This document shows, piece by piece, positions 35,981 to 61,416 of a stretch of DNA of 64,000 nucleotides. The notes beneath the pieces were generated by a model. It ran no database searches. It worked only from the letters and a program-made list of their open reading frames with translations, and was not told the origin of the DNA. How positions within the stretch are numbered: the stretch's first letter is position 1; every line of letters starts with the position of its first letter. Source of the DNA: Seonamhaeicola aphaedonensis (GTDB lineage: Bacteria > Bacteroidota > Bacteroidia > Flavobacteriales > Flavobacteriaceae); assembly GCF_003386195.1 (NCBI RefSeq), contig NZ_QRDX01000006.1, forward strand, positions 62,001 through 126,000. The letters run 5' to 3'. The translations under genes and the position numbers were made by a program.

Positions 35981-37765
35981 CTATTTAGAAATCAGTTGAT
36001 TGGTGTTTAAATTTATTATAAAATTATCAGATGGTGCTCCGTTTAAAAACTTTTTAAAAATTAAACAGAATTGTAAGAAGTCGTTTTCGATTTCTGATGG
36101 TGCACTAATCGATTTAAAATGAATTAAGTAGGCTTCAATAATTTTCTTATAGATTTCTACCCTTTTTTCTCCTATATCTTGAAATGCCAATGTATCTGCA
36201 GAGCGCAAACGATACAAATCGAATAACATCTCAAAACCTGTCCAGTCCTCAAATCCTTCCATAGTGTTTTCGTTAATTGAAACAAATTCTGCTACACTAT
36301 TCTTGGTTAAACTCAGTAAAAACGTGGTAAACGGAATGTCCCAATCCTTTTCCAAAAACCTATTATTAATTAGACCTTTCAAATGACTTTGCGTTAAATC
36401 TTTGTAGGTTTTCGCATTTAAAATTGTTGAATCCCATAACACATTCTCCATTTTACTTTTCATAAAGGCATACTCTTGTTTGTATAGCGGAAAGAATTCT
36501 TTAAATCTGTGCACATTGTCTATAACGACGGTCTCAATCTCAACCTCATCTGCGGAGACCGTTGCAATTTTATAGGCAGGAATATACGCCGCCAATGATG
36601 GTATTTGCACATTTACTAAACTACCTGATTCAAAAGTTGTAACACCTGTATCATTAATATGCATGTGTCCACCAAAATGTACTTTCACTCCCGCTTCAAT
36701 AAATGCTTTGGCTACGGCATCTTCTGGTACACGATGCAATTGCATTTTATCATCTCCCAGTAACATCCTTATGTTTTCAGAAGCACCATCGTTAAATTCT
36801 ACGGTTGGAAAATGGCTAAACACTATTAATTTTTTATTCAGCTTTTTTGCACGCTGTGTCACACTTTTTATCCATGCCATTAGATGTGCCTTATGTGATA
36901 ATATATTATTATAGCCAACACTTGCACTGCTGTAACTATTGGCGTCTTTGGGCACATACACATTAGCATCAATGGCTAAAAACCATAGCCCTTCTGTTGG
37001 TTCCACTAAATAACTTACATCAGGAATTTGGCTTCCAAAAGGTGGGATTTTATAATTTCTATTAGATAATTCAGCTTGTTTAAGAGCTTTATCAAATTGA
37101 TAATTCTCGTAATTATAATCTATAAACGGTGTCTCCCAATACACATCATTTTGCTTTGGATAGAAACCGAAATCTTTTAATTCATTTAAGATGTCTTCGT
37201 AGCCTAATTTTGCAATATCTTTTGTGAAAACAGGTTCTAATGCGTTGGAATCTTTTGCTCTGTATATCTCTTTCGAACTAAATATAGGTTGTTGTTTTCC
37301 GCCCTCGCCTATAAAATCATACTTCCCCGCTTCTTGGTAAAATGGGCGCACGGGGTCGTGATTACCAGTAGTTAAAATAAACTTGATATTATGTTTTTCT
37401 GAATACTTTTTTAGTATATGTTTTAAGCCTTTAATATTAAACATTTGCCCATCATCACTAAAATCTCCCGGCAATACCACGTATTTAATATTTTTGGATA
37501 CTATATCGTCTAAAGCCGACAAAAAAGCGAAGTAGTTTTCATTAAACAACCGTGTAGATTGTAACTGAGACTGCATCGTTCGGGCTAGTGTATAGGTATT
37601 CGTTTCAGGGTTTAAAACACCCTTGTAATCACTATCAGAAAAACTACCATAGATATCTTGAAAATGCACATCGGCCATAAAGGCTATTTTATAGCTTGTA
37701 TCATCCCTTTCTTTTTTACAAGAAAGACATACCAATAGTATTAATATGACGATACTTCTGTACAA
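35981..37765 (-). CDS. Calcineurin-like metallophosphoesterase lipoprotein
   Basis: A 594-residue exported lipoprotein (signal ending LVCLSC, cysteine 16). The five metal motifs of the calcineurin-like fold are present: MADVHF (Asp32, His34), PGDFSDDG (Asp101), TGNHD (Asn135-His136), FSHFP and GGHMHIN. It could remove phosphate monoesters or split phosphodiesters in the periplasm. Its neighbours are GH115 and the PI-PLC gene, so a plausible job is to strip phosphate from inositol phosphate or phosphomannose. TTG start at 37765; I saw no ATG consistent with the signal peptide. Confidence 0.85.
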   Translation of the reverse strand: MYRSIVILILLVCLSCKKERDDTSYKIAFMADVHFQDIYGSFSDSDYKGVLNPETNTYTLARTMQSQLQSTRLFNENYFAFLSALDDIVSKNIKYVVLPGDFSDDGQMFNIKGLKHILKKYSEKHNIKFILTTGNHDPVRPFYQEAGKYDFIGEGGKQQPIFSSKEIYRAKDSNALEPVFTKDIAKLGYEDILNELKDFGFYPKQNDVYWETPFIDYNYENYQFDKALKQAELSNRNYKIPPFGSQIPDVSYLVEPTEGLWFLAIDANVYVPKDANSYSSASVGYNNILSHKAHLMAWIKSVTQRAKKLNKKLIVFSHFPTVEFNDGASENIRMLLGDDKMQLHRVPEDAVAKAFIEAGVKVHFGGHMHINDTGVTTFESGSLVNVQIPSLAAYIPAYKIATVSADEVEIETVVIDNVHRFKEFFPLYKQEYAFMKSKMENVLWDSTILNAKTYKDLTQSHLKGLINNRFLEKDWDIPFTTFLLSLTKNSVAEFVSINENTMEGFEDWTGFEMLFDLYRLRSADTLAFQDIGEKRVEIYKKIIEAYLIHFKSISAPSEIENDFLQFCLIFKKFLNGAPSDNFIINLNTNQLISK

Positions 37766-37772
37766 TATTTTG

Positions 37773-40724
37773 CTATTTTAGTTTAGTTTCTGATGGAAAG
37801 GCATACGATGTTTTCCAACCGCCTAAATTAATTAAAATTTGGTCCAACATCACTCCAGGGTCTACCATCCAAATCTTCAGTTTATGCTTTCCAGCTTTGT
37901 TTACAATTTGCTTAACGGATTGTACCGATGCATTTTTTAATACATTTTCCTTCCAAGTTTCACTTCGTCCAAAGGTTTGAAAATCAACTATTACAGGTTC
38001 TGCATCATCTATAGCTACTGCACAACGTACACCCGTGTTATTATTAAAAGCATGTGTTGGTACAGCCTGTAAAAACAAATCTACCTCCCCAAAATTAAAG
38101 GTATAAAAATCATATTCTAAAATAGGACTATTTTGCTTTAGGCCTTCAATAGTGGTTTCAGAAGTTGCGCTTCGCGGAAGTGCCACACTTACATTTCCTG
38201 TATAGCCTAAACCTGTAAAGGTTGTCCATTTGGCTTCCTTTCCGTCTGTTTTTCTAGTATAATTTTCAGCATTTATTGAGACAAAACCTTTGTCTTCAAC
38301 AAAACCTTTATAATTTTCTAAATCTTTAAACTTTGGATTGAAGACCGAAACACCTAGCGTTGTAGTTTTGTTTTTGGTTGCTACATCTATAGCCGAATTC
38401 ACTTTGTAACTTGGCGGTATTAGCTGGTAATCGTGTCCTAACGGAGCTTCCTTTTTATTTTCCCCCTGCGGTACTTTATCCCAATCTATGGTAACCCAAA
38501 TACGCTCTTCTAATTGGTCTTTATCTAATTTTCCCGAGGTTTTAGAAAGTATAATCCAATCGGCTTTTGGTTGTAATTCCCACTCCAATTCGCCCTGTCC
38601 TTTTAAGAACACATCCATGTAATATGTATTCTCAGTGTAAGCATTAAACACAGGAAAAACATCGGCATAAGAATTTATAATCTCATCATTTACCTCCATT
38701 TGATAGCTCTCGATGGCTATCCCCAAGGTATTTGATTTTTCGGTTAAGGGGATGGACGCTGTTGGTTCTGAAAACACGGGCAAATGCCTAGGCGACATGC
38801 TCATGATATGTTTCCATTTTCCATTTTGAAGGGTGTTATTAAAATAATCGGTGTCTTTTTGAATGGTTTTGTATGCCTCTAAAGATTTCGTTGCAAAATC
38901 CTTAGCGCTCTCTCGCCCTTGTGATGCCACAAAAGCATTTTTATAAGTGTACAACCATTTAAAATTTAGGTTTGAGGCACCCGAAATTGGATAATAAACG
39001 AGTTGATAAAAGGCATCTGCCCTATGGCTGGGGATATTTTTTTGAATAGCCTTCACACGAGTAATTAAATCTTGATGCGCTTTGATTCGCTTACTAACCT
39101 CATCGCCATAATGATATTGCGTCAACTCGGTGTTAGCCGCTTTGGTTACAGGCTCCACACTACTCCAGGCCATAAATTCTGGTCGTCTTTGAAACGCCAA
39201 TAGATTGTATTGGTACATCAAATTGGTAATGGCAGTTGCATTATTTTTTCCAAATTCTCTGGTACTCCAGTATATATGATGTGCTCTTACGTCATCATCA
39301 TTTTTAAAGCCATCAATATCCCAAGCCATGTCCAAAAACAGCTCGATATTATATTCGTGCGGTTTGATGTCTCCACAATTTAAAATCCAAATATTTTGCG
39401 ACCCAAACTCGTATGCTTTAGTCATTTCTTCCCACATTAAAACTGGGTTTGTAGAATTCAACCATAAATAATCGTGTGGCCTACCCCAGTAGGAGGTGTG
39501 ATAATAGACACCCGCTCCACCGCTTCTTTTTTGCTCTTCAGCATTACTTAATTGGCGAATATATCCGTAGTTGTCGTCGGTCCAAACCAAACTTACATCT
39601 TCAGGTAAATCCAATCCACTTTGGTAGTAATGCAAGACCTCTTTATAGGGCACAAAAGCCTGTGGTTTTGTAACACCTTTTTTAGAATTAGCTTTTAAAA
39701 TCTCGCGTTGGTCGGTTATAACCCGTTCTAAAAGTTTTACTTGCGAATCGGTATCATCTTCTCCAACAATCATGGGAGAATCATGTTCTCCACGCATACC
39801 AACTGTGTAAATACCTTCAAAATTTGCAGTTTCTTTAGCTCTTTTTTTGAATAAAGATTTTATCGATTCTGAATTGGTATCGTATCGATAATCACCCATA
39901 GTATCATGATTCCATTCTGCATTAATGTTACACAACATAGGTTCTGCATGCGATGTCCCTATAACAATAGCGTAATTATCGGCTACTATTTTATTTTGTG
40001 GATAGTGGTAAAATGCCTTGGTACATTTGTGCATTGCCGGCCAAATAGTATTAGCTCGTAGGCGCAACAATAGTTCAAATACTTTGGCATAGGTTTTTGG
40101 CCCAATATCTCCCGTTTCTGGTTCGTAATTGAGTGCCGACCACCGTTGCAAGCCCCAATCTTCGTCATTTAAAAATAGACCTCGATATTTTACTGATGGC
40201 GTTCCATAGGTTTTATTTTCAATATGAAGCACAATACTTTCTTGCTTTTCTGGAGTAACATCTGCCCACCATTCCCATGGGGAAACGCCAATCCTTCTGG
40301 AAATTTCTAAAAGTCCGTAAGCCGTTCCTCGTCGGTCTGAACCAATAATGACTAATGCTTTTTTTATGCCTTTTGAAGGATTTTCAATAACCTGAATCGT
40401 GTAGGTTTCCCATTTCCCTTCAATTTGAGAGCCATCAATAGCGTGTTTTCTAATGAGCTGATTAATAACTTTACTGTTCCCTAATGTTCCAGCTATAATT
40501 TGATAAGGGGCTTGCTTTTGATGTTTCACAACCGTTTTCCCCGAAACTTTTTTGATATCGCTCGCCAAAATATTTGAAGCAATACTCACGACTTTGTCAT
40601 CCCTTTTATCTATGATGATAGAGGCTACTTCTCCATTTTGAACTATTGGAAATTGAATACCATTTTGCCCCCAAATTGAAAAACAAATAGTTAAGAATAT
40701 GAATTTTATAAAGCGTTTATTCAT
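37773..40724 (-). CDS. GH115 alpha-glucuronidase
   Basis: An enzyme of about 983 residues with a cleavable signal peptide (MNKRFIKFIFLTICFSIWGQ). The N-terminal domain ends around GTAYGLLEISRRIGVSPWEWWADV (about 145-168), the catalytic barrel has KYRGLFLNDEDWGLQRW and LRANTIWPAMHKCTKAF (about 180-240), WTDDNYGYIRQLS and WILNCGDIKPHEY, all typical of GH115. GH115 removes alpha-1,2-linked (4-O-methyl)glucuronic acid, known mostly from xylan. I use ATG 40724; it overlaps the PI-PLC stop by eight bases. No xylanase is in the window, so the glucuronate must come from another glycan. Confidence 0.9.
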   Translation of the reverse strand: MNKRFIKFIFLTICFSIWGQNGIQFPIVQNGEVASIIIDKRDDKVVSIASNILASDIKKVSGKTVVKHQKQAPYQIIAGTLGNSKVINQLIRKHAIDGSQIEGKWETYTIQVIENPSKGIKKALVIIGSDRRGTAYGLLEISRRIGVSPWEWWADVTPEKQESIVLHIENKTYGTPSVKYRGLFLNDEDWGLQRWSALNYEPETGDIGPKTYAKVFELLLRLRANTIWPAMHKCTKAFYHYPQNKIVADNYAIVIGTSHAEPMLCNINAEWNHDTMGDYRYDTNSESIKSLFKKRAKETANFEGIYTVGMRGEHDSPMIVGEDDTDSQVKLLERVITDQREILKANSKKGVTKPQAFVPYKEVLHYYQSGLDLPEDVSLVWTDDNYGYIRQLSNAEEQKRSGGAGVYYHTSYWGRPHDYLWLNSTNPVLMWEEMTKAYEFGSQNIWILNCGDIKPHEYNIELFLDMAWDIDGFKNDDDVRAHHIYWSTREFGKNNATAITNLMYQYNLLAFQRRPEFMAWSSVEPVTKAANTELTQYHYGDEVSKRIKAHQDLITRVKAIQKNIPSHRADAFYQLVYYPISGASNLNFKWLYTYKNAFVASQGRESAKDFATKSLEAYKTIQKDTDYFNNTLQNGKWKHIMSMSPRHLPVFSEPTASIPLTEKSNTLGIAIESYQMEVNDEIINSYADVFPVFNAYTENTYYMDVFLKGQGELEWELQPKADWIILSKTSGKLDKDQLEERIWVTIDWDKVPQGENKKEAPLGHDYQLIPPSYKVNSAIDVATKNKTTTLGVSVFNPKFKDLENYKGFVEDKGFVSINAENYTRKTDGKEAKWTTFTGLGYTGNVSVALPRSATSETTIEGLKQNSPILEYDFYTFNFGEVDLFLQAVPTHAFNNNTGVRCAVAIDDAEPVIVDFQTFGRSETWKENVLKNASVQSVKQIVNKAGKHKLKIWMVDPGVMLDQILINLGGWKTSYAFPSETKLK

Positions 40725-41781
40725 TTTTGATGTTTTTAATACGTTCGTAAGTACCGTCTTCAAATTTTACTTCAAAAGTAGATTTGAATAACCTTGAAGG
40801 CTGATAATAATCTGTTGAAATCACTTGCGCCCCCGAAGCCTTTGCTTTTTCAAATTTGGTATAATCGTTCGTTCGGGCTTCTTTTGTTCCAGCATCGGCG
40901 CGAGTGCGTACCATATAACCTTGTGCTACCAAGTGCTTGATATATTCAAAATCAGTAATGGGGTTGTTCACTATTCTAAATGCGGATTCTGGGTTTCCTT
41001 CTTTACTATTCACAAAAAACACGCGGTTTTTCAGCGTATTATCGCCATTCATATACAGGCTGTTTTTATGAGCTTTTTCATCTAAAACAAACAGGAATTT
41101 CCCTTTACAATCTTCTAATTTTGGCCAACCTTGTTTTAAAACGGCTTCTTCTAAAGTGCCATGGTTTCCCCTTACATCATCGGGTCGTATTAAATCCTCT
41201 TTTGCAAATACTGAAAATATTTCAGCATCTAATTCTTGATACGCTTTCTCTGAAAAGGGAATTGGCTTGGTTAAGTCTGGTATTACCTTGTCTTTCGTAT
41301 TCATTAAAATTATGATGGGCAGGTGTGCAGGATTGTTATCCGACCATTTTTTCATCGCTTTTAATGCCTCTTTAAATAATAAATGATGACTTCTAAAATC
41401 GATATCTTGGATATGAAATAGTTTAAACCCTGGTTGTTTTAATTGCTCTGCTTCGTCATAAGGCATTGGTGTTTCTCCCGATTGTTTGACAATATCTAAG
41501 CCTTTTGGATTTGAAAAATGACCGCCTTTGGGGTCGTAAAACACATCTAGCTCTAAATTTCGCAAGCCAAGATTTAACTGTGCTACTATAGAAATATGTT
41601 CATATTCCAATGACTTCGCTTTACTGGAATCTTTTAAAGCGATGTAGTTTAAAAGTGGTTGTTCAATTGCAATTTTATAGGAATTGTGACTCCCAATTAC
41701 CTGAATATCATTTAGCTTTATGGGTTGCTCTTTTGAACATCCAAGACTTAGAAGCACAACAAGTAGAACAAGTTGCTTCAT
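40717..41781 (-). CDS. PI-PLC-C1-like phosphatidylinositol phospholipase C, lipoprotein
   Basis: A 354-residue lipoprotein (LLSLGC, cysteine 15) matching the calcium-dependent PI-PLC-C1 family (Streptomyces PI-PLC1 type). Catalytic histidines are in VIGSHNSY (His32) and LFHIQDIDF (His123), calcium ligands are probably Glu77/Asp79 in LELDVFY, and VRTRADAGT plus GAQVISTDYY close the barrel. The family cleaves phosphatidylinositol between glycerol and phosphate. Between an exo-mannosidase and an alpha-glucuronidase, the likely target is an inositol phospholipid anchor on a glycan (GPI or inositol phosphoceramide). It is translationally overlapped with GH115. Confidence 0.9.
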   Translation of the reverse strand: MKQLVLLVVLLSLGCSKEQPIKLNDIQVIGSHNSYKIAIEQPLLNYIALKDSSKAKSLEYEHISIVAQLNLGLRNLELDVFYDPKGGHFSNPKGLDIVKQSGETPMPYDEAEQLKQPGFKLFHIQDIDFRSHHLLFKEALKAMKKWSDNNPAHLPIIILMNTKDKVIPDLTKPIPFSEKAYQELDAEIFSVFAKEDLIRPDDVRGNHGTLEEAVLKQGWPKLEDCKGKFLFVLDEKAHKNSLYMNGDNTLKNRVFFVNSKEGNPESAFRIVNNPITDFEYIKHLVAQGYMVRTRADAGTKEARTNDYTKFEKAKASGAQVISTDYYQPSRLFKSTFEVKFEDGTYERIKNIKNE

Positions 41782-41783
41782 AT

Positions 41784-43223
41784 TTAAATGGATTTTAAAA
41801 GTTCTGGCTTTTCATTGTATAATTTTAAAATTAACTCGCCAAAAAGGGTGTTTACCCATGCAAACCACGAACGCGAAAATTTGGATGCATCATCTTTATG
41901 AAAGGTTTCATGCATAAACCCCTTCCCATCATGTGTGTTCATGAGTTGTTTTACACACCACACAATTTCAGAATCGCTATCGCTAGTCATGGCCCGTAAA
42001 ATAATCCCCATAGGCCAAATGGTGTCTAAACCAGCGTGCGGACCTCCTTGTCCTTCACCTGCTTTTCCTTTAAAATAATAAGGGTTGTCGTCACTTAACA
42101 GATAAGTTCTTGTATTTTTATACGCCTCTAAATCGTAATACTGCTCGCTCATTAAATACTTCATGGCGATTAAAGATGGAATGTTTGGATCGTCTATAAA
42201 TGCCTGGTTACCAAAACCATCTACCTCATAGGCATAGACCTTACCATAATTTAGGTGTTCGGAAATGGCATATTTGTTTACAGCGCTTAACACTTCATCT
42301 GAAAAGGATTGACAGGCTTCTGAAAATGCTTTGTCTCCAAAAACATCATTATAAATCTCGCTCAACTGGGCTAAAGACTCCACCGCAAATAAATTGGAGG
42401 GAATTAAAAACGGGTACATCGTGCCATCATCTGAAGGTCTAAACGCAGAACAAATAAGTCCGACAGGTTTTATCGGCCTGCCCTTTCCGCTAAAAGGCGT
42501 AATGATATTTTTATTTCGTCGTACACGCTCAAAATAATAGGGTGTTTCTCCATTTTTGCGTTGCTCAGTTCTTAGCGTCTTTACCGCGAGTCGCATGGCT
42601 TTATCCCAATCGGCATCTAAAACAGAGGCGTCTCCAGTTTCCTTATAGTATCCATAAGATAAACGAATGGCGTAGCATAACGAATCTATTTCCCATTTAC
42701 GCTCATGCACTCCCGGTATTGGGGTTGGGCGGTCGTCCTTCCATTTGGTTTCTCTGGTCAGGTCTTTATAAAACGCATTGGCATAAGGGTCTAACAAAAT
42801 GCATTTGGTTTGCCTGTTGATTAAACCTTTAAAAAGGTTTTTTAGTGCTTCATCATGATTTACCAAAGGTAAATACGGCCATACTTGAGCAGTAGAATCC
42901 CTGAGCCACATGGCATCAATATCACCAGTAATAACAAAAGTATCTGGTTTGTTATTTATGACTTCAAAATCTACCGTGGTATCTAAAGTGTTTGGAAAAC
43001 AGTTTTCAAAAAGCCACGACAATTCTGGGTTTTTTATGACCCTTTTTACCGTTTTAATGGTATTTTCAACGGCTTGACTTATAAAGGTTCTATCTGTTAA
43101 TGGTGGTCTGTTAGATGTATAGGATGGTGTACTTGAGGCCATCGTAAATGCAGAACAACTTAGGGTCGCAACTCCCGTTGTACCTATAATCGTTTGCTTT
43201 ATAAATTTTCGTCGTGTGGTCAT
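41784..43223 (-). CDS. GH125 exo-alpha-1,6-mannosidase
   Basis: A 479-residue alpha/alpha-toroid of family GH125. Conserved blocks are DIDAMWLRDSTAQVWPYL (about 99-116, with the likely catalytic acid Asp), VHERKWEIDSLCYAIRLSYGY (about 170-190), and MHETFHKDDASKFSRSWFAW near 445, which supplies the likely base. The N-terminus TTRRKFIKQTIIG followed by LSC looks like a Tat lipoprotein signal. GH125 enzymes remove terminal alpha-1,6-mannose and usually work with GH92, which flank it here. It ends two bases from the PI-PLC start. Confidence 0.95.
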   Translation of the reverse strand: MTTRRKFIKQTIIGTTGVATLSCSAFTMASSTPSYTSNRPPLTDRTFISQAVENTIKTVKRVIKNPELSWLFENCFPNTLDTTVDFEVINNKPDTFVITGDIDAMWLRDSTAQVWPYLPLVNHDEALKNLFKGLINRQTKCILLDPYANAFYKDLTRETKWKDDRPTPIPGVHERKWEIDSLCYAIRLSYGYYKETGDASVLDADWDKAMRLAVKTLRTEQRKNGETPYYFERVRRNKNIITPFSGKGRPIKPVGLICSAFRPSDDGTMYPFLIPSNLFAVESLAQLSEIYNDVFGDKAFSEACQSFSDEVLSAVNKYAISEHLNYGKVYAYEVDGFGNQAFIDDPNIPSLIAMKYLMSEQYYDLEAYKNTRTYLLSDDNPYYFKGKAGEGQGGPHAGLDTIWPMGIILRAMTSDSDSEIVWCVKQLMNTHDGKGFMHETFHKDDASKFSRSWFAWVNTLFGELILKLYNEKPELLKSI

Positions 43224-43266
43224 AACAATGATATTTACCTAAACCTTTCTCAATCTGCATGACAGA

Positions 43267-45564
43267 CTACCTTGTTCCAGTCATTTCAAGTTTTAGCACC
43301 CCGCCGTTGGTTAAGGATTTATGAGACACATTAAATTTAGGCAAATCCTCGTTATTAAAAAAGGCCTCTTTTATGAAAACATTAGTACTGCTGTTGTTTG
43401 CTGATTGAATCTCCAAAGTCTTTCCTGAATAATACTCTGGGTGTAGTTGAATAGTTACTTTATCAAAAATTGGACTTCCTATTTGATACTCCGGATTTTC
43501 CTCTGTACCTCCATTGACTTGAAACAACCCTATTTTCATTAATACGGCTAAACTTCCCATGAGGCCTTGGTCTTCATCGCCATTATATCCTGTAGATGGC
43601 GCTAGACCACCAAAAACCTTGGAAGCCACTCGTCTTGACCAATAGTGGGCTAAATCTGGTCTACCTAGTTTATTGAAAATAAAGGCAGTTTGGATAGAGG
43701 GTTGATTACCATAATTTATGGGGATTTTACGATACTCTGGGTGTAATTCTGAAGCATGCGATGTGCCAGAAGTAAAGTTTAATTGTTCTGATTGTTCAAA
43801 TTGCGTATTCAATTTTTCAACAGCTTTTTCTTTACCTCCCATGAGTTCAGCAAGTCCATCGTAATCATGAGGTACAAACCAAGTAGATTGTGCGCCATTG
43901 GATTCTATAAAACCTTCTTCATAAGTATACGGGCTATAATTGGCTTGCCATTTCCCATCAACATTTTTGGCTTGCATCCATCCTTCTTCATTTAAAAGCG
44001 TTGCATAATTTTTTGAACGTTCTATGAAGTAATCATAATCTTCCATCTTATTCAGCTTCAATGCCAATTGAGCTAGTACCCAGTCTTGATAGGCATACTC
44101 TAAGGTTAAACCAGCACCATCTTGATGCCCGCCAAACTTCCCTTTAGGATTAGGATGTGGCACAAAGCCTTTTTCCATATAGAAATCCAGTCCGCCACCA
44201 ATATTGGTTTTATGCTCATAACCCGCTTTTTCCATGATACCACCTTCTACATGGTTTTTCTTCAAAGCATCATAAATGTCGTCTAGATTTTCCTTTAAAA
44301 TACCTTTTTGAATCGCGCTTACAAAAAACGGTGTGGCTGGGGCGCCTGTCATCACATAGGTGTAATTTCCACCTGATGGCCCTCTGGGAACCAAGCCTCC
44401 ATCTTTATAATATTGAAGAAAAGACATGGCAAATTCTTCATAAATATCTGGATATGCTAAGCCCCAGAGTGTATTTAATGTCCATTGGGCTCCCCAAAGC
44501 GCATCAGAATTGTAATGATTAAATTTTGGTTTTCCTGAAGCATCCAACGGTAATTGCCCAATCTTAAATTCATCTCTAGTGTTATCAGGATAGGCTCCAT
44601 TGACATCACTAATAATACGTCTGCCTTGAAGCGCATGCCATAAATCTGTATAAAAACGTTTTTGTTGTTTTTCCGTATTACCTTCAACCTTTATTCTACT
44701 TAATAATGAATTCCAATGGTCTTTGGAATCTTGAACTACTGCTTCAAAATCCCAATGAGGTAACTCTGTTTTAAGATTCAAGTTAGCATTTTCATTTGAA
44801 GTATATGAGATAGCCACCTTCATAAGTAAGGGCTTTTCCAAATCAGAAAAATTCATCAGATAATTGCCTGTTGCTTCATCTTTTTGTAATTCAGTTACTG
44901 GAGTATCGAGACTTACCCTAAAGAATACCTTAAATTCTTGAGGCCTTCTGTGGGTTGGTGTTGCCACTACTGAACCCGAAAATTCCGTATCACTAATTTG
45001 GCGTAATTCGCCTTGGGCATTATCTGATGGTCCAAGTATGGTATTCAAATTAAACAAAACCGCATTTTTGGTGTTTTCTGGAAAGGTATATTTGTGAAAA
45101 CCCACTCTTGTGGTACTGGTAAGCTCTGTTTTAATGCCATAACGTTTTAGTGCTAAGCTATGATGTCCGGGTGTTACTGTTTCATCATTATGACTAAATT
45201 TTGAATAAAAATCTTTGAAAACTGTTTTAGTATTCTCTTCAGAAAGCGTTACCGGCATAACCGACACGCCTGATATTTGCCAACCATGTATATGACTAAA
45301 ACCCTTGATAGTATCGATTTTATAACGATAACCACTGCCCCAAGCACCGTCAATTTCATTATCTGGACTTAGATTTACCATCCCAAAAGGGCGACATGCT
45401 GATGAAAAGAAAAACCATCTGGAATTCTCCGTATCCAATTGCGGATAAACCAAACTTGCGTAATCTATTGCTTTATTGGTTGTATCAAAATTTGTTTTAT
45501 CTTCATTTTTACATGAAAGCAGAATGCTCAGTACGATTATTGCTATGGTAAAATAATGTTTCAT
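43267..45564 (-). CDS. GH92 alpha-mannosidase (copy A)
   Basis: A 765-residue lipoprotein (SILLSC, cysteine 18). The GH92 pattern of an N-terminal beta-sandwich (YPQLDTENSRWFFFSSACRP) and an alpha/alpha-barrel is present. The catalytic-acid motif reads YNGDEDQGLMGS, keeping the Glu used by characterised enzymes. The sequence diverges from the more usual GH92 opening (FIGT..GH..PGA..PFGM), here ACRPFGMVNLSPD, and may favour another linkage. GH92 enzymes are calcium-dependent inverting exo-mannosidases for alpha-1,2, 1,3, 1,4 or 1,6 bonds, or mannose phosphodiesters. Confidence 0.85.
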   Translation of the reverse strand: MKHYFTIAIIVLSILLSCKNEDKTNFDTTNKAIDYASLVYPQLDTENSRWFFFSSACRPFGMVNLSPDNEIDGAWGSGYRYKIDTIKGFSHIHGWQISGVSVMPVTLSEENTKTVFKDFYSKFSHNDETVTPGHHSLALKRYGIKTELTSTTRVGFHKYTFPENTKNAVLFNLNTILGPSDNAQGELRQISDTEFSGSVVATPTHRRPQEFKVFFRVSLDTPVTELQKDEATGNYLMNFSDLEKPLLMKVAISYTSNENANLNLKTELPHWDFEAVVQDSKDHWNSLLSRIKVEGNTEKQQKRFYTDLWHALQGRRIISDVNGAYPDNTRDEFKIGQLPLDASGKPKFNHYNSDALWGAQWTLNTLWGLAYPDIYEEFAMSFLQYYKDGGLVPRGPSGGNYTYVMTGAPATPFFVSAIQKGILKENLDDIYDALKKNHVEGGIMEKAGYEHKTNIGGGLDFYMEKGFVPHPNPKGKFGGHQDGAGLTLEYAYQDWVLAQLALKLNKMEDYDYFIERSKNYATLLNEEGWMQAKNVDGKWQANYSPYTYEEGFIESNGAQSTWFVPHDYDGLAELMGGKEKAVEKLNTQFEQSEQLNFTSGTSHASELHPEYRKIPINYGNQPSIQTAFIFNKLGRPDLAHYWSRRVASKVFGGLAPSTGYNGDEDQGLMGSLAVLMKIGLFQVNGGTEENPEYQIGSPIFDKVTIQLHPEYYSGKTLEIQSANNSSTNVFIKEAFFNNEDLPKFNVSHKSLTNGGVLKLEMTGTR

Positions 45565-45568
45565 GTAT

Positions 45569-47197: not shown

Positions 47198-47199
47198 TT

Positions 47200-49278: not shown

Positions 49279-49293
49279 AAAGCAGTGAAAAAT

Positions 49294-49321
49294 AAAGGCA
49301 GACATGGAAATATCTGCCTTT
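49294..49321 (-). terminator. Intercistronic hairpin after susD (attenuating terminator)
   Basis: On the minus strand, AAAGGCAGA and TCTGCCTTT form a perfect 9-base stem with a 10-base loop, followed by ATTTTTC. It lies 71 bases after the susD stop and immediately before the next gene, inside an otherwise continuous operon. Such a leaky terminator would make susC/susD transcripts more abundant than the distal enzyme genes, as is usual in these loci. Confidence 0.75.
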
Positions 49322-54122: not shown

Positions 54123-54192
54123 TGTAATTCATTTAGTTAATTCGTTAAATTTTCTGTGAAATTAGATTAATACCCTAAATTCGATATGTAAA

Positions 54193-54220: not shown

Positions 54221-54318
54221 TAATTAAAACTTCTTCATTGCAAAATATTAACGTTTTTTTGTTAATCTGAAAGCTACAAAAATTACTACATCTACACTTG
54301 ATACATTGTATAATTTTC

Positions 54319-54335
54319 CATGTTTTTGAATTATT
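54319..54335 (+). promoter_or_regulatory. Weak HTCS-like site facing the MIOX gene
   Basis: CCATGTTTTTGAATTAT on the plus strand matches about 11 of 17 positions of the motif found in front of the three minus-strand operons (CCATG, then TTTGA, T and A spaced alike). It lies about 130-147 bases before the MIOX ATG in the right orientation. If real, it would bring MIOX and the symporter under the same regulator; the match is imperfect. Confidence 0.35.
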
Positions 54336-54465
54336 TGTCCTTTCCAAAAATTGTTTAAAACTATACTTTTGAGTTAGGTTATTCCTACCGACTAGGCGAA
54401 ATAAGCATAGACGATTTGCTTAACAGAAAACTGTATTCCGTTTAATTACTTTGAAATTAGAATTT

Positions 54466-55323: not shown

Positions 55324-55351
55324 AAACTAAAACTAAACCAACTAAATAATA

Positions 55352-56926
55352 ATGTTTTATACCTATTTAGGATTTTTTGGATTTACCTTATTTGTAATAA
55401 TTTATACAACATATAAACTAAGAAAAGATAAATTCACAACCTCCAAGGGTTATTTTTTAGCTGGAAAAAGTTTAACTGGCCCTATCATAGCAGGTTCTAT
55501 GATACTTACCAACATTTCAACCGAACATCTAATAGGAATGAATGGGAGCTCGTATAGAAATGGTATTATCATCATAGCTTGGGAAGTCACCTCGGCCATT
55601 GCTCTGGTAATTGCGGCTATTTATTTTATCCCTAAGTTTATTAAACTTGGAATTACTACCATTCCTGAATTTTTAGAAAAACGTTTTGATGGATCCATAC
55701 GCTCTATTGTTGCTTTTCTATTAATGTCTTCATTCGTGATAACCTTATTACCTATTGTATTGTATTCAGGTGCTATAAACATTGAAAGCGTATTTGATTT
55801 TTCTGCCATATTTAACGTATCAAAGAGAGAATCGCTTATTTACACCATACTAACTATTGGTGTTGTGGGTTCTATGTATGCCATTTTTGGAGGTTTAAAA
55901 GCTGTAGCCTATTCAGATTCATTAAACGGTATTGGACTAATGTTGGGAGGGCTTCTTATACCTATTATTGCTTTGTATCAAATTGGAAACGGCAATATGT
56001 TTGAGGGTTTAAGCAGCGTTTATGACTTTGCTCCTGATAAATTTGATATTATTGGAAAGCCCGATTCTGTGCTGCCTTTTTCGGTCTTGTTTACTGGATT
56101 AATGATTAATCAATTATATTTCTGGGGGATGAATCAAGCCATTATTCAACGTGCCTTTGGGGCAAAGAATTTAGTAGAAGCTCAAAAAGGACTCATTTAC
56201 ACAGGTGCTTTAAAACTTTTTGTTCCTGCCATTATAGTCTTACCTGGGTTAATCGCATACTACTATTTTCAAGATACGTATTATGAAAATCCAGATTTGA
56301 TATACCCCATGCTCGTAAAAAAGGTATTACCATCTTACCTTTTTGGCTTTTTTGCCGCTGTAATTTTAGGAGCTGTATTAAGTACTTTTAATAGTGTACT
56401 TAACTCTGCCAGTACTATTTTTTGCTTGGACATTTACCAAAAAATCATAGACAAAAATGCTTCTGATAAAAAACTAGTGAAGTATGGCAAGATATCATCT
56501 GTTGTTCTCGCTTTAATTGCAATTGCGGTGGCTCCAATGGTTTCTTATGCCCCTGATGGTTTATACCAACTATTACAAGAACTTAATGGTATATTCTTTA
56601 TACCAATTTCTTCTATCATCATTGCTGGTATTTTCTTTAAGCAAATAAACACTACTGGTGCCAAAGCTGGACTGTTCTTCGGATTTACATTTTATATTCT
56701 AACGACTTTTATACTGAATCTAGATATTCACTTTGTACATTTATGGGGTATTGAATTTGTACTCAACTTTATAATCATGTTTTTGGTTTCTAGATTGTAT
56801 CCGTCTCAAAAAACACCTGAATATTATCAAGAAACTGAACTTGATGAACCTTCATGGTCTAAAGTAAAAACGTATGGAACCGTATTAGTATTTTTGACGG
56901 TATTGATTTACGTTTTACTGTCTTAA
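55352..56926 (+). CDS. Sodium:solute symporter (SSS/SGLT family), probable inositol importer
   Basis: A 524-residue integral membrane protein with about 13-14 helices. SLC5-type motifs include YFLAGKSLTGPIIAGSMILTNIS (about 35-57), EFLEKRFDG and YAIFGGLKAVAYSD (about 175-188), MNQAIIQRAFGAKN (about 262-275). SSS proteins couple sugar, inositol or uronate uptake to sodium. Its place immediately after MIOX makes myo-inositol the best guess, glucuronate the second. Its stop is six bases from the convergent uxaA stop. Confidence 0.9.
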   Translation: MFYTYLGFFGFTLFVIIYTTYKLRKDKFTTSKGYFLAGKSLTGPIIAGSMILTNISTEHLIGMNGSSYRNGIIIIAWEVTSAIALVIAAIYFIPKFIKLGITTIPEFLEKRFDGSIRSIVAFLLMSSFVITLLPIVLYSGAINIESVFDFSAIFNVSKRESLIYTILTIGVVGSMYAIFGGLKAVAYSDSLNGIGLMLGGLLIPIIALYQIGNGNMFEGLSSVYDFAPDKFDIIGKPDSVLPFSVLFTGLMINQLYFWGMNQAIIQRAFGAKNLVEAQKGLIYTGALKLFVPAIIVLPGLIAYYYFQDTYYENPDLIYPMLVKKVLPSYLFGFFAAVILGAVLSTFNSVLNSASTIFCLDIYQKIIDKNASDKKLVKYGKISSVVLALIAIAVAPMVSYAPDGLYQLLQELNGIFFIPISSIIIAGIFFKQINTTGAKAGLFFGFTFYILTTFILNLDIHFVHLWGIEFVLNFIIMFLVSRLYPSQKTPEYYQETELDEPSWSKVKTYGTVLVFLTVLIYVLLS

Positions 56927-56932
56927 ACAACT

Positions 56933-58558
56933 TTAAACAGACCCACCTTTACGCCAAGGAATAAAGTCGTTTTGCCCTAATAGATGTGCTTTTGCCTTTA
57001 TATTCCCACTAGCCACTTCAATAATATATTCAAGTAACTCAACTCCCATATCTTCAATTGTTTTTTCACCACGAATTACTGCTCCCGTTTCAAAATCAAT
57101 TATATCGGGCATTTTTTGTTTTAACTCAGTATTTGAAGCCACTTTTATAACCGGAGCTATTGGGTTTCCCGTTGGCGTACCCAATCCGGTTGTAAACAAA
57201 ACTATATTTGCGCCAGACCCCACAAGGCCCGTTGTACTTTCTACATCATTACCTGGTGTACACAATAAATGAAGCCCATGTTTAGATATATATTCACCAT
57301 AATCTAAAACACCTTCTATTGGGCTATTACCTCCTTTTTTACAGGCTCCTGCAGATTTCATGGCATCTGTTAATAACCCATCTTTAATATTGCCAGGAGA
57401 GGGATTCATATCAAAACCAGAACCTACATTGATGAGGCTTTGTTCAAATGCCTTCATTAAATTCAAGAATTTAACAGCATCGTCATTATTTTTGCATCTG
57501 TTTACCAATTCTTGTTCAACTCCACAGAGTTCCGGAAATTCAGCAAGAATGGCTTTTCCCTTTAAGGTCACTAAAATATCTGAAACTATACCTAATGTAG
57601 GATTAGCAGAAATACCAGAAAACCCATCTGAACCACCACACTCCAATCCTAGAGTTAACTTGGAAAGCGGTGCTGGTTTACGTGTAATATTATTAGCCTT
57701 TTTAATTTCAGCAAAGGAATCTTTTATGATAATAGACAACATATCATTCACAGTCCCCATTTGTTGTTGCTCATAAACAAGCACCGGCTTTTTTAAATTG
57801 GGAGCAATGGTATTTAAAGCATCTTTAAATATTTTGATTTGTAGGTTCTGACAACCTAAACTTAGCACGGTTGCTCCGGCTACATTTGGATTATTTACGT
57901 ATCCCGCCAATAATTTTGCTAAACCCTCTGAATCCTGTCGAATACCACCACAACCACCAGAATGGGTTATAAATCTAACATCGACATTGTCAAATACATT
58001 CGACTGAGTATCATCCAATACTGTAGATGGTTCTTGACCATTAATCAAACCCCTTAACAACATTTGATGCGAACTGACTTGCTTTGGCCGAAGCTCGCTT
58101 TCAAAAATATCCTTTAAAAGCTCTATATTTCTATTTTCACAAAATACCAGAGGAAAAAACAACCATATATTTTCAGTTCCTACTTGGCCGTCTTCCCTAT
58201 GATACCCCAAGAATGTTCTACTTTTCCATTTGTCAATATTCGGAGGCTCCCAGTCGATTGACCCCGTTTTTTTCACGACCTTTTCAGCCTTATGGGTAAT
58301 ATTGATTACCGTTAACATTTCTCCTTTTTTAATCGATAATTTAGCTGTTCCTACCAGAACACCGTACATTATAATCCTATCACCTTTTTCAAAATTTTCT
58401 AAGGCAATTTTATGTTTTCGCGGCGTATCTTTTAAAACGGTAATCGATTCACCATGAAGCGTTAAGACCTCTTTAGCCATTAAATCCACCAAAGCCACTG
58501 CCACATTATCCGAAGCATTAATTTTTAAAAGTTTTTTATGGTGTTGACTGCTACTCAT
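56933..58558 (-). CDS. uxaA: Altronate dehydratase
   Basis: A 541-residue UxaA-type dehydratase. The N-terminal SAF-like domain (INASDNVAVALVDLMAKE; GDRIMYGVLVGTAKLSIKKGE-like) spans about 1-95, and the C-terminal catalytic domain carries GYHREDGQVGTENIW, THSGGCGGIRQDSE, LGLECGGSDGFSGISANPTLG and the cysteines expected for an iron cofactor. It turns D-altronate into KDG, the last step before KDG in galacturonate breakdown. It ends the GH92-uxaC-uxaB-uxaA operon, six bases after uxaB. Confidence 0.95.
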   Translation of the reverse strand: MSSSQHHKKLLKINASDNVAVALVDLMAKEVLTLHGESITVLKDTPRKHKIALENFEKGDRIIMYGVLVGTAKLSIKKGEMLTVINITHKAEKVVKKTGSIDWEPPNIDKWKSRTFLGYHREDGQVGTENIWLFFPLVFCENRNIELLKDIFESELRPKQVSSHQMLLRGLINGQEPSTVLDDTQSNVFDNVDVRFITHSGGCGGIRQDSEGLAKLLAGYVNNPNVAGATVLSLGCQNLQIKIFKDALNTIAPNLKKPVLVYEQQQMGTVNDMLSIIIKDSFAEIKKANNITRKPAPLSKLTLGLECGGSDGFSGISANPTLGIVSDILVTLKGKAILAEFPELCGVEQELVNRCKNNDDAVKFLNLMKAFEQSLINVGSGFDMNPSPGNIKDGLLTDAMKSAGACKKGGNSPIEGVLDYGEYISKHGLHLLCTPGNDVESTTGLVGSGANIVLFTTGLGTPTGNPIAPVIKVASNTELKQKMPDIIDFETGAVIRGEKTIEDMGVELLEYIIEVASGNIKAKAHLLGQNDFIPWRKGGSV

Positions 58559-58564
58559 TTTATA

Positions 58565-60016
58565 TCAATAGGATTTATTAAACGACTCAAACCCTTTTTC
58601 AATACCATAACCATCTATGGTTTCTAAAGCAAGCGCAATAGCATCTTTCAATCCTTCTATTTTTGTTAAATCTTGTCCCCAAAACAACTCACTTTCCAGC
58701 ACCTCTTGAGCCACTTTTCCATTGTTATTTGATTGCCAAATTTGTGATAGTTTTTGGGTTACATGCTCATCATCATTAACAGGCATTGATAAACCGAAAT
58801 ATTCTCCTTTGTAAAACCTTATTAAACAAGCAAAAGCAAATGTTAAACGGGTTGGAATATTTCCGTATTTATCAAAATAAGACAATAGACTTGGCAACAC
58901 CCGAACTTTAAACTTTGATATCATATTCAAGGCTATACTGGATAAATTATGAACTATATATGGATTTTGAAACCTCTCGAAAGTAGCATTTGCAAATGAT
59001 ACCAGTTCATTTTTATCCATTTCCAAGGTATTGATAATTTCATCAAAAACTGTTTGTTTTACAAAGTTTGACGTGAAATCTACATCCATGGTTTCTTTCA
59101 CTGTAGTATTTCCATAAAGTATCGATAAAGGAACCATTACTGTATGTGCCCCGTTAAGAATTCTTACCTTTCTTGTTCTAAATGGTTGCATATCTGGCAC
59201 AACCTTAACCTCCAAACCTGTTTTAGAGAAGCCTAACCTTTCTTTTAATCTTTCATCACCTTCTATGACCCACAGAAAGAAGGTCTCAGCAGTAACAATT
59301 AATTTATCCGAATAGTTTAATTGCTTGTTATAATATTCTATTTCATGCTTTGGATATCCCGGAACAATCCTATCCACTAATGTATTATGAAAAGTGCATG
59401 CCTTGTCTATCCAATTTTTAAAATTCCCCTCTAAATTCCATAGGTCAACATACTTTAAAATGACAGCTTTTAAGGTGTCTGCATTATAATTAATCAACTC
59501 ACATGGAATAACGGTTAGCCCTTTGGAAACATCTCCCTTATACCAGTTGTACCGTTCTAATAAAAACAAGGTCAATTTAGCAGGAAAAGAACTTGGAGGC
59601 CTCATGTCTTGAGTGTCTGATGAAATAAAACTAATACCTGCCTCCGTTGTGTTCGAAATAACAAACTCTAAAGTTTCGGTTCTTCCTAATTCTAAAAAGT
59701 CATTAAAATCTGAGTAAGGGTTTATGCCTTTTACAATGGTATCTATCAATTCTACTTCATTAACTGCTTTACCGTTTTTAAGTCCTCTCATAAACAGCGT
59801 GTACAGGCCATCTTGTTCATTCAATACTGGAATCAACCCTTTATCTATAGGTTGTACAACTGCTATACCCGCATTGAAATTAGTAAACTTATTTAGCTCA
59901 CTGATAGCATATCCCACAAAAGCACGAAGAAAGTTCCCTTCACCAAACTGGACAATTTTTATAGGTTTAGGTTCATTACAACTAACATTTTTTCTGTTTA
60001 GTGATGGTTTATTCAT
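58565..60016 (-). CDS. uxaB: Tagaturonate reductase
   Basis: A 483-residue mannitol-dehydrogenase-family enzyme: IVQFGEGNFLRAFVGYAI binds NAD(H) (about 22-39), FVISNTTEAGISF near 118, and RKVRILNGAHTVMVPLSILYG near 290 with the catalytic Lys/Asn/His set. Length and motif spelling fit E. coli UxaB better than UxuB, so tagaturonate to altronate is the primary call. Because no uxuB is visible, fructuronate reduction to mannonate by this enzyme should be considered. Same length class as UxaB. Confidence 0.9.
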   Translation of the reverse strand: MNKPSLNRKNVSCNEPKPIKIVQFGEGNFLRAFVGYAISELNKFTNFNAGIAVVQPIDKGLIPVLNEQDGLYTLFMRGLKNGKAVNEVELIDTIVKGINPYSDFNDFLELGRTETLEFVISNTTEAGISFISSDTQDMRPPSSFPAKLTLFLLERYNWYKGDVSKGLTVIPCELINYNADTLKAVILKYVDLWNLEGNFKNWIDKACTFHNTLVDRIVPGYPKHEIEYYNKQLNYSDKLIVTAETFFLWVIEGDERLKERLGFSKTGLEVKVVPDMQPFRTRKVRILNGAHTVMVPLSILYGNTTVKETMDVDFTSNFVKQTVFDEIINTLEMDKNELVSFANATFERFQNPYIVHNLSSIALNMISKFKVRVLPSLLSYFDKYGNIPTRLTFAFACLIRFYKGEYFGLSMPVNDDEHVTQKLSQIWQSNNNGKVAQEVLESELFWGQDLTKIEGLKDAIALALETIDGYGIEKGFESFNKSY

Positions 60017-60021
60017 ACCTA

Positions 60022-61416
60022 TTAAAAATTAAAGTAATCCTTAGCATTATTATAACAAATGTCCGACACCATGCCCCCAACTAAACTCATATCGTTGGGC
60101 AATTCTCCGCTCTCCATTTCCTTACCCAAAATATTACAAAGTATACGCCTAAAATATTCGTGCCTAGGAAAGGACAAAAAACTCCTGGAATCCGTCAGCA
60201 TACCAACAAAACAGCTCAAGAGTCCCATATTAGAAAGCGCATTTAACTGTTTGGTCATGCCATCTTTTTGGTCTAAAAACCACCAACCAGAGCCTAATTG
60301 CACCTTCCCTTTTATACTACCGTCATTAAAATTCCCAATCATTGAAGCGAACACTTCATTATCGGCTGGGTTAAGGTTATATAAAATGGTTTTAGTTAGT
60401 TTATCATTATTATCCAGTGTGTTCAAAAATTTTGAAAGGCTTTGTGCTTGTGTATAATCCCCGATAGAATCCCAACCTGTATCAGGCCCTAACATGCTAT
60501 GCATCCGCGCATTATTATTTCTTAGCGCTCCTAAATGAAATTGTTGTACCCACCCAAATGTATGATAGGTTTCTCCTAAAAATAATAAAATAGCACTTTG
60601 GAACTTAATTGCTTCCTTTTCACTGATAGCTTTGTTATCTCGCCTCTTTTTAAAAATAGTGTCAACCTCTTTTTCAGTAAAGTTTTCAAAGCTAATTTGG
60701 TTCAATCCATGGTCACTTAATTTACATCCGTTTGCATCAAAAAAGGCAATTCTATCGTGCAAAGCGCCACATAAATCTTTAAATGAATTTATTTCTTTAT
60801 GAACACATTGGGATAAAATATTAATATAATCATTGTATCCTTCATTTTGAATTAGAATGCTCTTATCTGGTCTAAAAGATGTACTAACTTTCACCTCAAA
60901 ATTCAAATGTTGTAATTGTTTATGATACTTTAAGTCATCTATTGGGTCTTCTGTGGTGCAGACTATTTCGGTATTAGCCATTTTAAGTAAATTTTGACAG
61001 CTAAATGACTTTGAACTAAGTTTTTCAAGCGTATCGTGATAAATACTTTCGGCTGTATTCGCATTCAATAAGTCATAAATATCGAAATATCTTGCGAGTT
61101 CCAAGTGCGTCCAATGATACAACGGATTTCTTAAAGTAAATGGTACAGTTTTGGCCCATTTAAGAAATTTATCTTTGTCTGAGGCATTGCCTGTAATATA
61201 TCGTTCGTCAATCCCTAAAGTCCTCATGGCACGCCATTTATAATGGTCGCCGTGTATCCAAACCTGAGTTAAATTCCCAAAAATGGTATCCTCGGCAATA
61301 TCCTTTGGCGATAAGTGATTATGATAATCTATTATGGGTTGATTTTTGGCATAATTGTGATAGAGTTCTTCTGCAAACCTATTTTGTAACAAGAAATTTT
61401 CGTGTATAAATTTCAT
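60022..61416 (-). CDS. uxaC: Glucuronate/galacturonate isomerase
   Basis: A 464-residue amidohydrolase-fold uronate isomerase. The metal motif YHNHLSPKDIAED (His32, His34) is near the N-terminus, and SGWWFLDQKDGMTKQLNALS, LTDSRSFLSFPRHEYFRRILC are the well-conserved UxaC C-terminal segments. It interconverts glucuronate with fructuronate and galacturonate with tagaturonate, so it can take glucuronate from GH115 or MIOX and galacturonate from the GH28-like enzyme. Five bases separate it from uxaB. Confidence 0.96.
   Translation of the reverse strand: MKFIHENFLLQNRFAEELYHNYAKNQPIIDYHNHLSPKDIAEDTIFGNLTQVWIHGDHYKWRAMRTLGIDERYITGNASDKDKFLKWAKTVPFTLRNPLYHWTHLELARYFDIYDLLNANTAESIYHDTLEKLSSKSFSCQNLLKMANTEIVCTTEDPIDDLKYHKQLQHLNFEVKVSTSFRPDKSILIQNEGYNDYINILSQCVHKEINSFKDLCGALHDRIAFFDANGCKLSDHGLNQISFENFTEKEVDTIFKKRRDNKAISEKEAIKFQSAILLFLGETYHTFGWVQQFHLGALRNNNARMHSMLGPDTGWDSIGDYTQAQSLSKFLNTLDNNDKLTKTILYNLNPADNEVFASMIGNFNDGSIKGKVQLGSGWWFLDQKDGMTKQLNALSNMGLLSCFVGMLTDSRSFLSFPRHEYFRRILCNILGKEMESGELPNDMSLVGGMVSDICYNNAKDYFNF

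Follow-up and report, generated by a model that had tools for sequence, protein, structure and literature searches.

A SusC/SusD locus of Seonamhaeicola aphaedonensis combining PI-PLC-C1, GH115 and myo-inositol oxygenase genes: a candidate system for glycosyl inositol phosphoceramide headgroups

Gene content and organization of the locus

A 64,000-nt stretch of the Seonamhaeicola aphaedonensis genome (the window, which is part of contig C6 of the 3.5-Mb genome G000) carries a SusC/SusD locus that encodes, in one cluster, a predicted inositol-lipid phospholipase C (PI-PLC-C1), a myo-inositol oxygenase (MIOX) and a GH115 α-glucuronidase. The Pfam scan covered 40 of the 47 listed frames of the window; the other seven are short and overlap longer frames. 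Read from 63.8 kb downward, the locus begins with GH92c, the uronate isomerase UxaC, a UxaB-type dehydrogenase and UxaA, followed on the opposite strand by a sodium:solute symporter (SSF) and MIOX, the latter divergent from susC. Below MIOX lie SusC, SusD, GH92b, GH28, GH92a, GH125, PI-PLC-C1, GH115, a metallophosphoesterase (MPE), a hybrid two-component regulator (HTCS) and a FucP-type symporter, then GH38, LacI and a second GH38, and further away a sugar-oxidation module, a UxuA-like gene, a weak GH76 and a GH85 (Table 1). PI-PLC is directly flanked by GH115 on one side and GH125 on the other, and GH115 and PI-PLC are probably read together, since even the first ATG of the GH115 frame falls within the end of PI-PLC. 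With adjacent susC and susD, an HTCS and six glycoside hydrolase genes at 37.8-63.8 kb (GH115, GH125, three GH92 and GH28), the locus has the make-up of a polysaccharide utilization locus (PUL).

An original prediction, made from the window sequence, had placed PI-PLC, a periplasmic phosphoesterase, the symporter, MIOX and UxaC together in a mannan utilization locus. These five genes are indeed intact and clustered with SusC/SusD, as judged from Pfam matches and coordinates; the GH115 and GH28 genes were absent from its gene list. Lipoprotein-type signal sequences were recognized by eye at the N-termini of PI-PLC, MPE, GH28, GH92a, GH92b, GH92c and SusD. The assignment of MPE as a metallophosphoesterase stands, but its location must be widened, since a predicted lipoprotein may reside in the periplasm or at the surface.

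Table 1. Features of the window and related features of other genomes (handles G, C and L denote genomes, contigs and loci)
Feature	Location	Strand	Support and distribution
FucP-type MFS sugar:H+ symporter	30492..31796	-	TIGR00885, 507.7 bits; 6/9 core-locus maps
HTCS (Reg_prop, Y_Y_Y, HisKA, HATPase, RR, AraC HTH)	31938..35969	-	Pfam; 9/9 core loci
MPE, calcineurin-like metallophosphoesterase lipoprotein	35981..37765	-	PF00149; lipobox LVCLSC
GH115, predicted α-glucuronidase	37773..40763	-	PF15979 and PF17829 above cut-off; ORF start TTG 40763, first ATG 40724
PI-PLC-C1 lipoprotein	40717..41781	-	PF16670, 418 bits (cut-off 29.9); lipobox LSLGC
GH125, predicted α-mannosidase	41784..43223	-	Pfam; also in G044, G152, G153, Algibacter pectinivorans and Seonamhaeicola loci
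GH92a, predicted core α-mannosidase	43267..45564	-	Pfam; 64-75% identity to the other 8 linked loci
GH28 lipoprotein, rhamnogalacturonidase/polygalacturonase-like	45569..47203	-	Pfam; NCBIfam below cut-offs
GH92b, predicted α-mannosidase	47200..49305	-	Pfam
SusD-like surface glycan-binding lipoprotein	49392..51050	-	Pfam
SusC-like TonB-dependent transporter	51069..54122	-	Pfam
MIOX (A-type)	54466 (ATG) or 54451 (TTG) to 55323	+	PF05153, 372.7 bits (cut-off 25)
SSF sodium:solute symporter	55352..56926	+	Pfam; NF007790, 674 bits
UxaA-like altronate dehydratase	56933..58558	-	Pfam, NCBIfam
Mannitol-dehydrogenase-family protein typed tagaturonate reductase (UxaB)	58565..60016	-	NF002969, 630.6 bits
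UxaC uronate isomerase	60022..61416	-	NF002794, 612.8 bits
GH92c, predicted α-mannosidase	61467..63767	-	Pfam
~690-aa GH115-like protein	L086:7206-9263; also G002, G207, G211, G229, L128, L129, L132, L141, L211	+ (L086)	same loci, beside or replacing GH115
HGSNAT-like acetyltransferase adjoining GH89 α-N-acetylglucosaminidase	L090:13375-16751; L194-L195, L206, L232, L234, L126, L205	- (L090)	
Flavobacterium variant MPE-HTCS-MIOX-GH2-HGSNAT-like-SSF-GH28	L133, L139, L140, L142, L145, L150-L154, L160, L171, L183, L190, L191		no PI-PLC/GH115 within 10 kb
SDR (short-chain dehydrogenase) and UxuA-like genes beside MIOX	L127-L129, L146-L148, L159, L173, L178, L181		several with a 3-keto-disaccharide hydrolase (DUF1080) family protein and UxaC nearby
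Extra GH115 copies outside the locus clade	L216, L218 (G061); L219 and 566-kb copy (G228); L220 (G115); three of G164		

Conserved active sites and family membership

The active-site motifs that the original prediction had read in MIOX and PI-PLC were borne out by alignment. The iron-binding motifs of MIOX, with what we take to be the ligand residues, line up with mouse MIOX (2huo), and in PI-PLC the SHNSY and ExD motifs, whose residues are presumably catalytic, and the FH of FHIQDID were invariant across 11 aligned homologues, the profile also matching the solved PI-PLCs 5fyo and 3h4w. Score and conserved motifs together place the two proteins in the PI-PLC-C1 and MIOX families, with the corresponding activities predicted. 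GH115 is an α-1,2-glucuronidase family, and the window protein, which aligned with the solved α-glucuronidases 5by3, 4zmh and 4c90 (the best being BtGH115A, 5by3, at 604 bits), is a predicted member of it. Some of the loci also contain a distant GH115-like protein of ~690 aa, with 69 bits to GH115. Its structure model was poor (pLDDT 63), and the structural matches, in which nine GH115 structures ranked first and GH20, GH138, GH84 and GH67 followed, are a lead only, possibly to a new family.

The metal motifs of MPE were invariant in 20 homologues. Its sole match in the profile search against the PDB was Lmo2642, which was also the best Foldseek hit of its structure model (pLDDT 78.5), followed by SMPDL3A, purple acid phosphatases and Mre11, with TM scores of at most 0.48 by query length. 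We propose that MPE is an inositol-phosphate phosphatase or a sphingomyelinase-like phosphodiesterase; judged from the weak SMPDL3A fold match, it might act at the PI-PLC step as well, or take its place there.

Linkage of PI-PLC and MIOX in the family

PI-PLC-C1, MIOX and GH115 were searched for in one evenly drawn sample of 249 genomes from the same family. Full-length PI-PLC-C1 was found in 19 genomes, full-length MIOX in 40, and GH115 matches in 43. By score, the MIOX proteins fell into an A-type, which includes that of the window (17 genomes, 362-379 bits), and a B-type at 313-327 bits in 24 genomes, with both types in G211. Full PI-PLC occurred in 12 of the 17 A-type-MIOX genomes versus 7 of the 232 others (Fisher 3.0e-12, a value that overstates independence because the genomes share ancestry), and in nine of those 12 it lay 7-21 kb from MIOX (<25 kb), where random placement expects 0.15. 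The linkage held at PI-PLC identities of 62-83% to the window and SusC identities down to 43%. These results demonstrated that PI-PLC and MIOX cluster beyond chance. The co-occurrence in related genomes that the original prediction had called for was thus found, with many MIOX genomes lacking PI-PLC, and the linked set for inositol release and oxidation (PI-PLC, phosphoesterase, symporter and MIOX) recurs in related loci.

The one listed same-genus genome, G213, gave no match to PI-PLC, MIOX or GH115, so the locus looks accessory. Five B-type MIOX control loci (L107-L111) pair MIOX with an SSF of 57-59% identity to that of the window, and this shared pairing supports SSF as a candidate inositol importer. 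In G006 (L056-L057, G006:C3:79-87 kb), a B-type MIOX with two in-frame stops lies 7 kb from PI-PLC, perhaps a decayed linkage. A scan of viral contigs for PI-PLC relatives gave none.

Core and companion genes

Maps of the relatives were drawn from frames of ≥110 aa, labelled by their best BLASTP match to window or companion proteins, and a minority of the unlabelled frames was scanned further. All nine linked loci, the window included, carry SusC, SusD, GH92a, PI-PLC, MPE, HTCS, MIOX and SSF. GH115 is present in six and the distant GH115-like protein in four, one locus having both, so that at least one of the two occurs in every locus. FucP (6/9), GH28 (4/9) and GH125 (3/9) are variable, GH85 occurs in one of the nine genomes, and GH76 (PF03663) exceeded the cut-off near the locus in two, G000 (29.7 bits) and G152 (26.6 bits, ~24 kb from PI-PLC); in the remaining seven it was on other contigs, below the cut-off or absent. 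A GH38-like match of 34% identity was found by BLASTP in the G152 map. Pfam identified GH89, an HGSNAT-like acetyltransferase, GH2, GH29, GH51, GH3 and an acetylesterase-like SASA protein as companions in relatives. The common theme is the GH92-GH115-PI-PLC-MPE-MIOX set, and neither mannan enzymes nor GH89. The mannan and glycosylphosphatidylinositol (GPI) setting of the original prediction is less likely after this comparison, and GH115 points more to a lipid bearing glucuronic acid (GlcA) on inositol. A GH76 endo-mannanase, as expected in the core of a fungal mannan PUL, is not part of the core shared by the nine linked genomes.

The arrangement was followed further in named genomes, namely the best 80 of at least 582 A-type-MIOX loci. 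PI-PLC was searched for in a first batch of 49 genomes, chosen for locus-like maps or as mostly cultured strains, and in the remaining 29, mostly small metagenome-assembled genomes and Cytophagales; at least five genomes are shared with the 249-genome sample (L117=G152, L118=G115, L123=G153, L125=G228 and L130=G207). PI-PLC was found in 40/49 and 9/29 genomes, respectively, and lay <25 kb from MIOX in 22 of the 49 first-batch genomes, the batch in which distances were determined. The arrangement was seen in Algibacter, Hyunsoonleella, Seonamhaeicola, Maribacter, Wenyingzhuangia, Cellulophaga, Mariniflexile, Muricauda and Flavobacterium; among the best 80 of at least 582 loci, the nearest named relatives of the window MIOX belong to Algibacter and Hyunsoonleella. 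Gene content, family assignments, conserved active-site motifs and this cross-genus linkage are direct observations.

The variants differ mainly around GH89 and PI-PLC. F. glycines and F. sufflavum have the order GH89-HGSNAT-PIPLC-GH115-GH29-MPE-HTCS, in which GH29 is a GH29-like protein and F. glycines has one extra ORF before PIPLC. In G100 the order is GH92a-GH89-HGSNAT-GH115-HTCS; G117 shares it, except that two further genes, GH28 and GH2, separate GH92a from GH89. A further Flavobacterium arrangement, seen for instance in Root186, is MPE-HTCS-MIOX-GH2-HGSNAT-like-SSF-GH28; PI-PLC is then distant, beside another SusC and MPE. In G127:C20, five ORFs were checked for a substitute of PI-PLC or GH115; one was a DUF4861 protein, and the others were below the cut-off or without match. 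In Xanthocytophaga (Cytophagales), an HGSNAT-like/GH89 pair directly follows MIOX.

In the GH115 tree, which excludes fragments and proteins below the length limits, the 25 locus copies together with G100 and G117 formed one 100/100 clade. The 20 other GH115s fell outside it, including eight that are further copies in four locus-bearing genomes (G061, G115, G164 and G228). With the locus label alone, two changes were needed, because G100 and G117 nest inside the locus clade. In the PI-PLC tree, 28 glycosidase-linked copies lay in a 99/99 clade; most glycosidase-free copies were outside, but G172 and G236 were inside. G006 and Xanthocytophaga were unlabelled in this tree. The glycosidase-free label was also given to G153:C4 and G135:C6, although no MPE adjoins them.

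Uronate catabolism

UxaC handles glucuronate or galacturonate. The original prediction of a complete route to 2-keto-3-deoxygluconate (KDG) within 35981-61416 was not upheld. The UxaB-type protein scored 630.6 bits as tagaturonate reductase (cut-off 359) versus 102.2 as fructuronate reductase (cut-off 603), and the UxaA and UxaB-type genes of the window agree with a galacturonate branch and with GH28. The glucuronate arm, including fructuronate reductase and the true UxuA, is on contig C8 (D-mannonate oxidoreductase, 425 bits; UxuA, 612 bits; second UxaC, 577 bits), and contig C5 holds a KDG-kinase-like gene and a KDPG aldolase. The window gene at 14033-15118 encodes a divergent UxuA-like protein that scored below both NCBIfam cut-offs. 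In relatives, SDR and UxuA-like genes adjoin A-type MIOX, which supports MIOX as a probable feeder of glucuronate catabolism. The earlier pathway idea is right in outline and partly supported.

Proposed substrate and pathway

We consider glycosyl inositol phosphoceramide (GIPC)-type lipids, or inositol-phosphate glycans derived from them, the likeliest substrate, with the headgroup dismantled by a SusC/SusD-based system, and give this reading a probability of about 0.6. The plant GIPC core is GlcNAc(a1-4)GlcA(a1-2)Ins-1-P-Cer (PMC6151786), the major Arabidopsis form is Man-GlcA-IPC whereas rice is rich in HexN/HexNAc heads (PMC9113257), and further hexoses and pentoses lie outside the first GIPC sugar (PMC9113257, PMC12201980). 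One locus offers a family for each bond of such a headgroup, the matching being ours: GH92 would act on Man, GH115 on GlcA, PI-PLC on the phosphodiester, MPE on phosphate and MIOX on inositol. The GIPC reading draws on this correspondence; the invariant GlcA-Ins-P part would match the least variable genes and the variable sugars the variable genes. It is favored over GPI or mannan because of GH115 in the window and of GH89 with an HGSNAT-like protein in some relatives, and GH115 is the gene that best identifies the presumed substrate.

The substrate, the order of steps, all enzyme activities and the transported solute are what we infer from sequence, as follows. Outer α-mannosidases (GH92) would trim the sugar attached to GlcA, and in relatives with a GlcNAc- or GlcN-bearing substrate GH89 and the HGSNAT-like protein would remove that sugar. 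GH115 would then cut α-1,2-GlcA off inositol, PI-PLC-C1 would split Ins-1-P from ceramide (or diacylglycerol), and MPE would take off the phosphate or itself work as a sphingomyelinase-like phosphodiesterase. Inositol would enter through the SSF symporter and be converted by MIOX to glucuronate, which would join the GlcA freed by GH115 in one uronate pool entered at UxaC and finished by UxuB/UxuA/KdgK/KdgA-type genes elsewhere in the genome. A breakdown product would be sensed by HTCS.

We give even odds to a stronger claim, that this would be the first bacterial nutrient system dedicated to GIPC, with a near-constant core and interchangeable outer glycosidases that track the variable sugars. 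The core (GH92, a GH115-type glucuronidase, PI-PLC, MPE, MIOX, SSF and HTCS) would, on a balance just as even, serve the invariant GlcA-Ins-P, and the outer set would comprise further GH92s, GH89 with the HGSNAT-like protein, GH2, GH29, GH51 and GH3. That both halves of GlcA-inositol end in one pool, and that some loci acetylate and then cleave glucosamine in a lysosome-like manner, are parts of this claim with an equal chance of being right or wrong. F. glycines, one of the carriers, is presumably a soybean isolate, judging by its name.

Alternative explanations and relation to known systems

Several observations weigh against the GIPC reading. Known GH115s act on the GlcA of xylan or arabinogalactan, and action on GlcA-inositol is inferred here. 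Five of the 17 A-type-MIOX genomes of the sample, as well as 9/49 and 20/29 of the named genomes, lack PI-PLC, which lies on another contig in G127, G135 and G153; A-type MIOX also occurs without PI-PLC, the 29-genome batch speaking against a universal link, and many Flavobacterium loci (e.g. L150) have MPE-HTCS-MIOX-HGSNAT-like but neither PI-PLC nor GH115 in the 10 kb examined. GlcA-IPC has been called plant-specific (PMC9113257), many locus carriers bear marine names, and no report of GlcA-IPC-type lipids in algae was found in the open-licence literature. The simplest GIPC head would not require the GH28, GH125 and extra GH92s of the window. The Pfam matches of the 40 window frames included no ceramidase-type family (a search confined to these frames and not extended to the genome), so the lipid part may go unused. 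GH89 is found in only two of the nine linked genomes, within the locus in G228 and ~16 kb from PI-PLC in G061, and nowhere in G000; this rarity counts solely against the glucosamine variant in the window.

Other substrates have to be weighed against the same loci. Degradation of GPI anchors or of fungal or algal mannoproteins is unlikely: PI-PLC would free GPI-anchored mannoproteins or cut the GPI lipid, GH92/GH125/GH76/GH38/GH85 would digest N-glycan and GPI mannose, and MIOX would use the GPI inositol. The window does hold GH85, a weak GH76, two GH38s, GH125 and three GH92s, G152 too has GH76-type and GH38-like genes near the locus, GPI is a classical target of PI-PLC, and GH89 with the HGSNAT-like protein of relatives could take α-GlcN off GPI inositol. 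However, the GPI core offers GH115 no known target, inositol is a tiny share of mannoprotein, and GH85, GH76 and GH125 are confined to the few loci counted above. An acidic glucuronomannan-type polysaccharide, attacked by GH115, GH28 and GH92, with PI-PLC/MPE acting on a phosphodiester substituent and MIOX adding inositol use, is slightly more doubtful still. The galacturonate-type UxaA/UxaB/UxaC set would fit GH28, and loci without PI-PLC (G153:C6, G115 and G164) retain GH115, GH92a and MIOX, but why a PLC family for inositol lipids should travel with an inositol oxygenase is left unexplained.

The least probable of these alternatives is phosphate scavenging from inositol phospholipids, with the sugar genes as incidental neighbors. 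It has a precedent in PUSI of Flavobacterium johnsoniae, the nearest system described, which consists of PusCD with pf16670 and pf00149 proteins and is induced by phosphate starvation; the study describing it sets it apart from PULs that carry CAZymes (PMC8115612). The side-by-side SusCD-like pair, PI-PLC-C1 (pf16670) and metallophosphoesterase (pf00149) recur in the window, and SusC-PIPLC-MPE loci without matched glycosidases (G014, G143, G127:C27, G172, G236 and Root186) look like PUSI in their gene make-up. PUSI, however, lists an ECF sigma factor and no CAZymes, whereas the window has GH92/GH115/GH28/GH125 with HTCS, the regulator of the glycosidase-linked loci; MIOX and SSF suggest carbon use, each of the nine loci has GH92a and a GH115-type protein, and the linked PI-PLCs form the 99/99 clade apart from most glycosidase-free ones. 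The table of PMC8115612 seems to have exchanged product names and Pfam numbers between Fjoh_4172 and Fjoh_4173.

Further known systems resemble the locus in part. The yeast and high-mannose mannan PULs of Bacteroidetes are built on GH92/GH76/GH125/GH38, and the window likewise has GH92, GH125, a weak GH76, GH38, GH85, SusCD and HTCS; GH85, GH76 and GH125, however, are outside the shared core, and to our knowledge no mannan PUL carries PI-PLC, GH115 or MIOX. In lysosomes, a step of heparan-sulphate breakdown is performed by HGSNAT and NAGLU, and an HGSNAT-like acetyltransferase adjoins GH89 in several relatives; this pair is bacterial and sits in SusCD loci beside GH115/PI-PLC, whereas the window lacks the pair and its genome lacks GH89. 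Botrytis cinerea BCIN07g04350, a secreted and assayed GIPC phospholipase C of a putative sphingomyelinase family, cleaves plant GIPC into ceramide and inositol-phosphate glycan (PMC11496612), but it is a single fungal enzyme with no linked headgroup pathway, related to MPE through the weak SMPDL3A fold match only. Iol clusters occur in 2% of Flavobacteriaceae species according to an inositol survey, which in its available portion mentions inositol oxygenase once, for yeast (PMC9430895); inositol catabolism is common to both, and the window locus would use MIOX to glucuronate. A term search of the main text of a paper on inositol lipids in gut Bacteroidetes found neither phospholipase C nor inositol oxygenase (PMC9246714). 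No record of MIOX/GH115 combined with SusCD PI-PLC loci, and no paper joining myo-inositol oxygenase with polysaccharide utilization, was found in the open-licence literature. The original claim that no SusC/SusD locus with PI-PLC and MIOX had been described met no counter-example in that literature as regards the combination, while PI-PLC with SusCD is not new (PMC8115612); the addition of MIOX/GH115 is apparently new.

If the GIPC reading is true, the locus would be a bacterial route to consume one of Earth's most abundant lipid types and would provide testable genes for the turnover of plant-type membrane sphingolipids across many flavobacteria. It would also account for the presence of MIOX in a PUL, carry the concept of the PUL beyond polysaccharides to the headgroups of lipids, and yield a GH115 acting on a new aglycone and perhaps novel tools for cleaving GIPC.

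Neighboring genes

The minus-strand module at 14033-22772 contains the divergent UxuA-like gene, CoA-transferase III, enoyl-CoA hydratase, an SBP-like protein without obvious signal sequence, and lactonase, SDR, cupin-like (144 aa), XylE-like and RraA-like genes. Homologues of its CoA-transferase, SDR and XylE recur downstream in the same genome (L238, G000:C6:125-145 kb), where four more BLASTP matches to the window GH92s, of 29-35% identity, lie beyond the window end.

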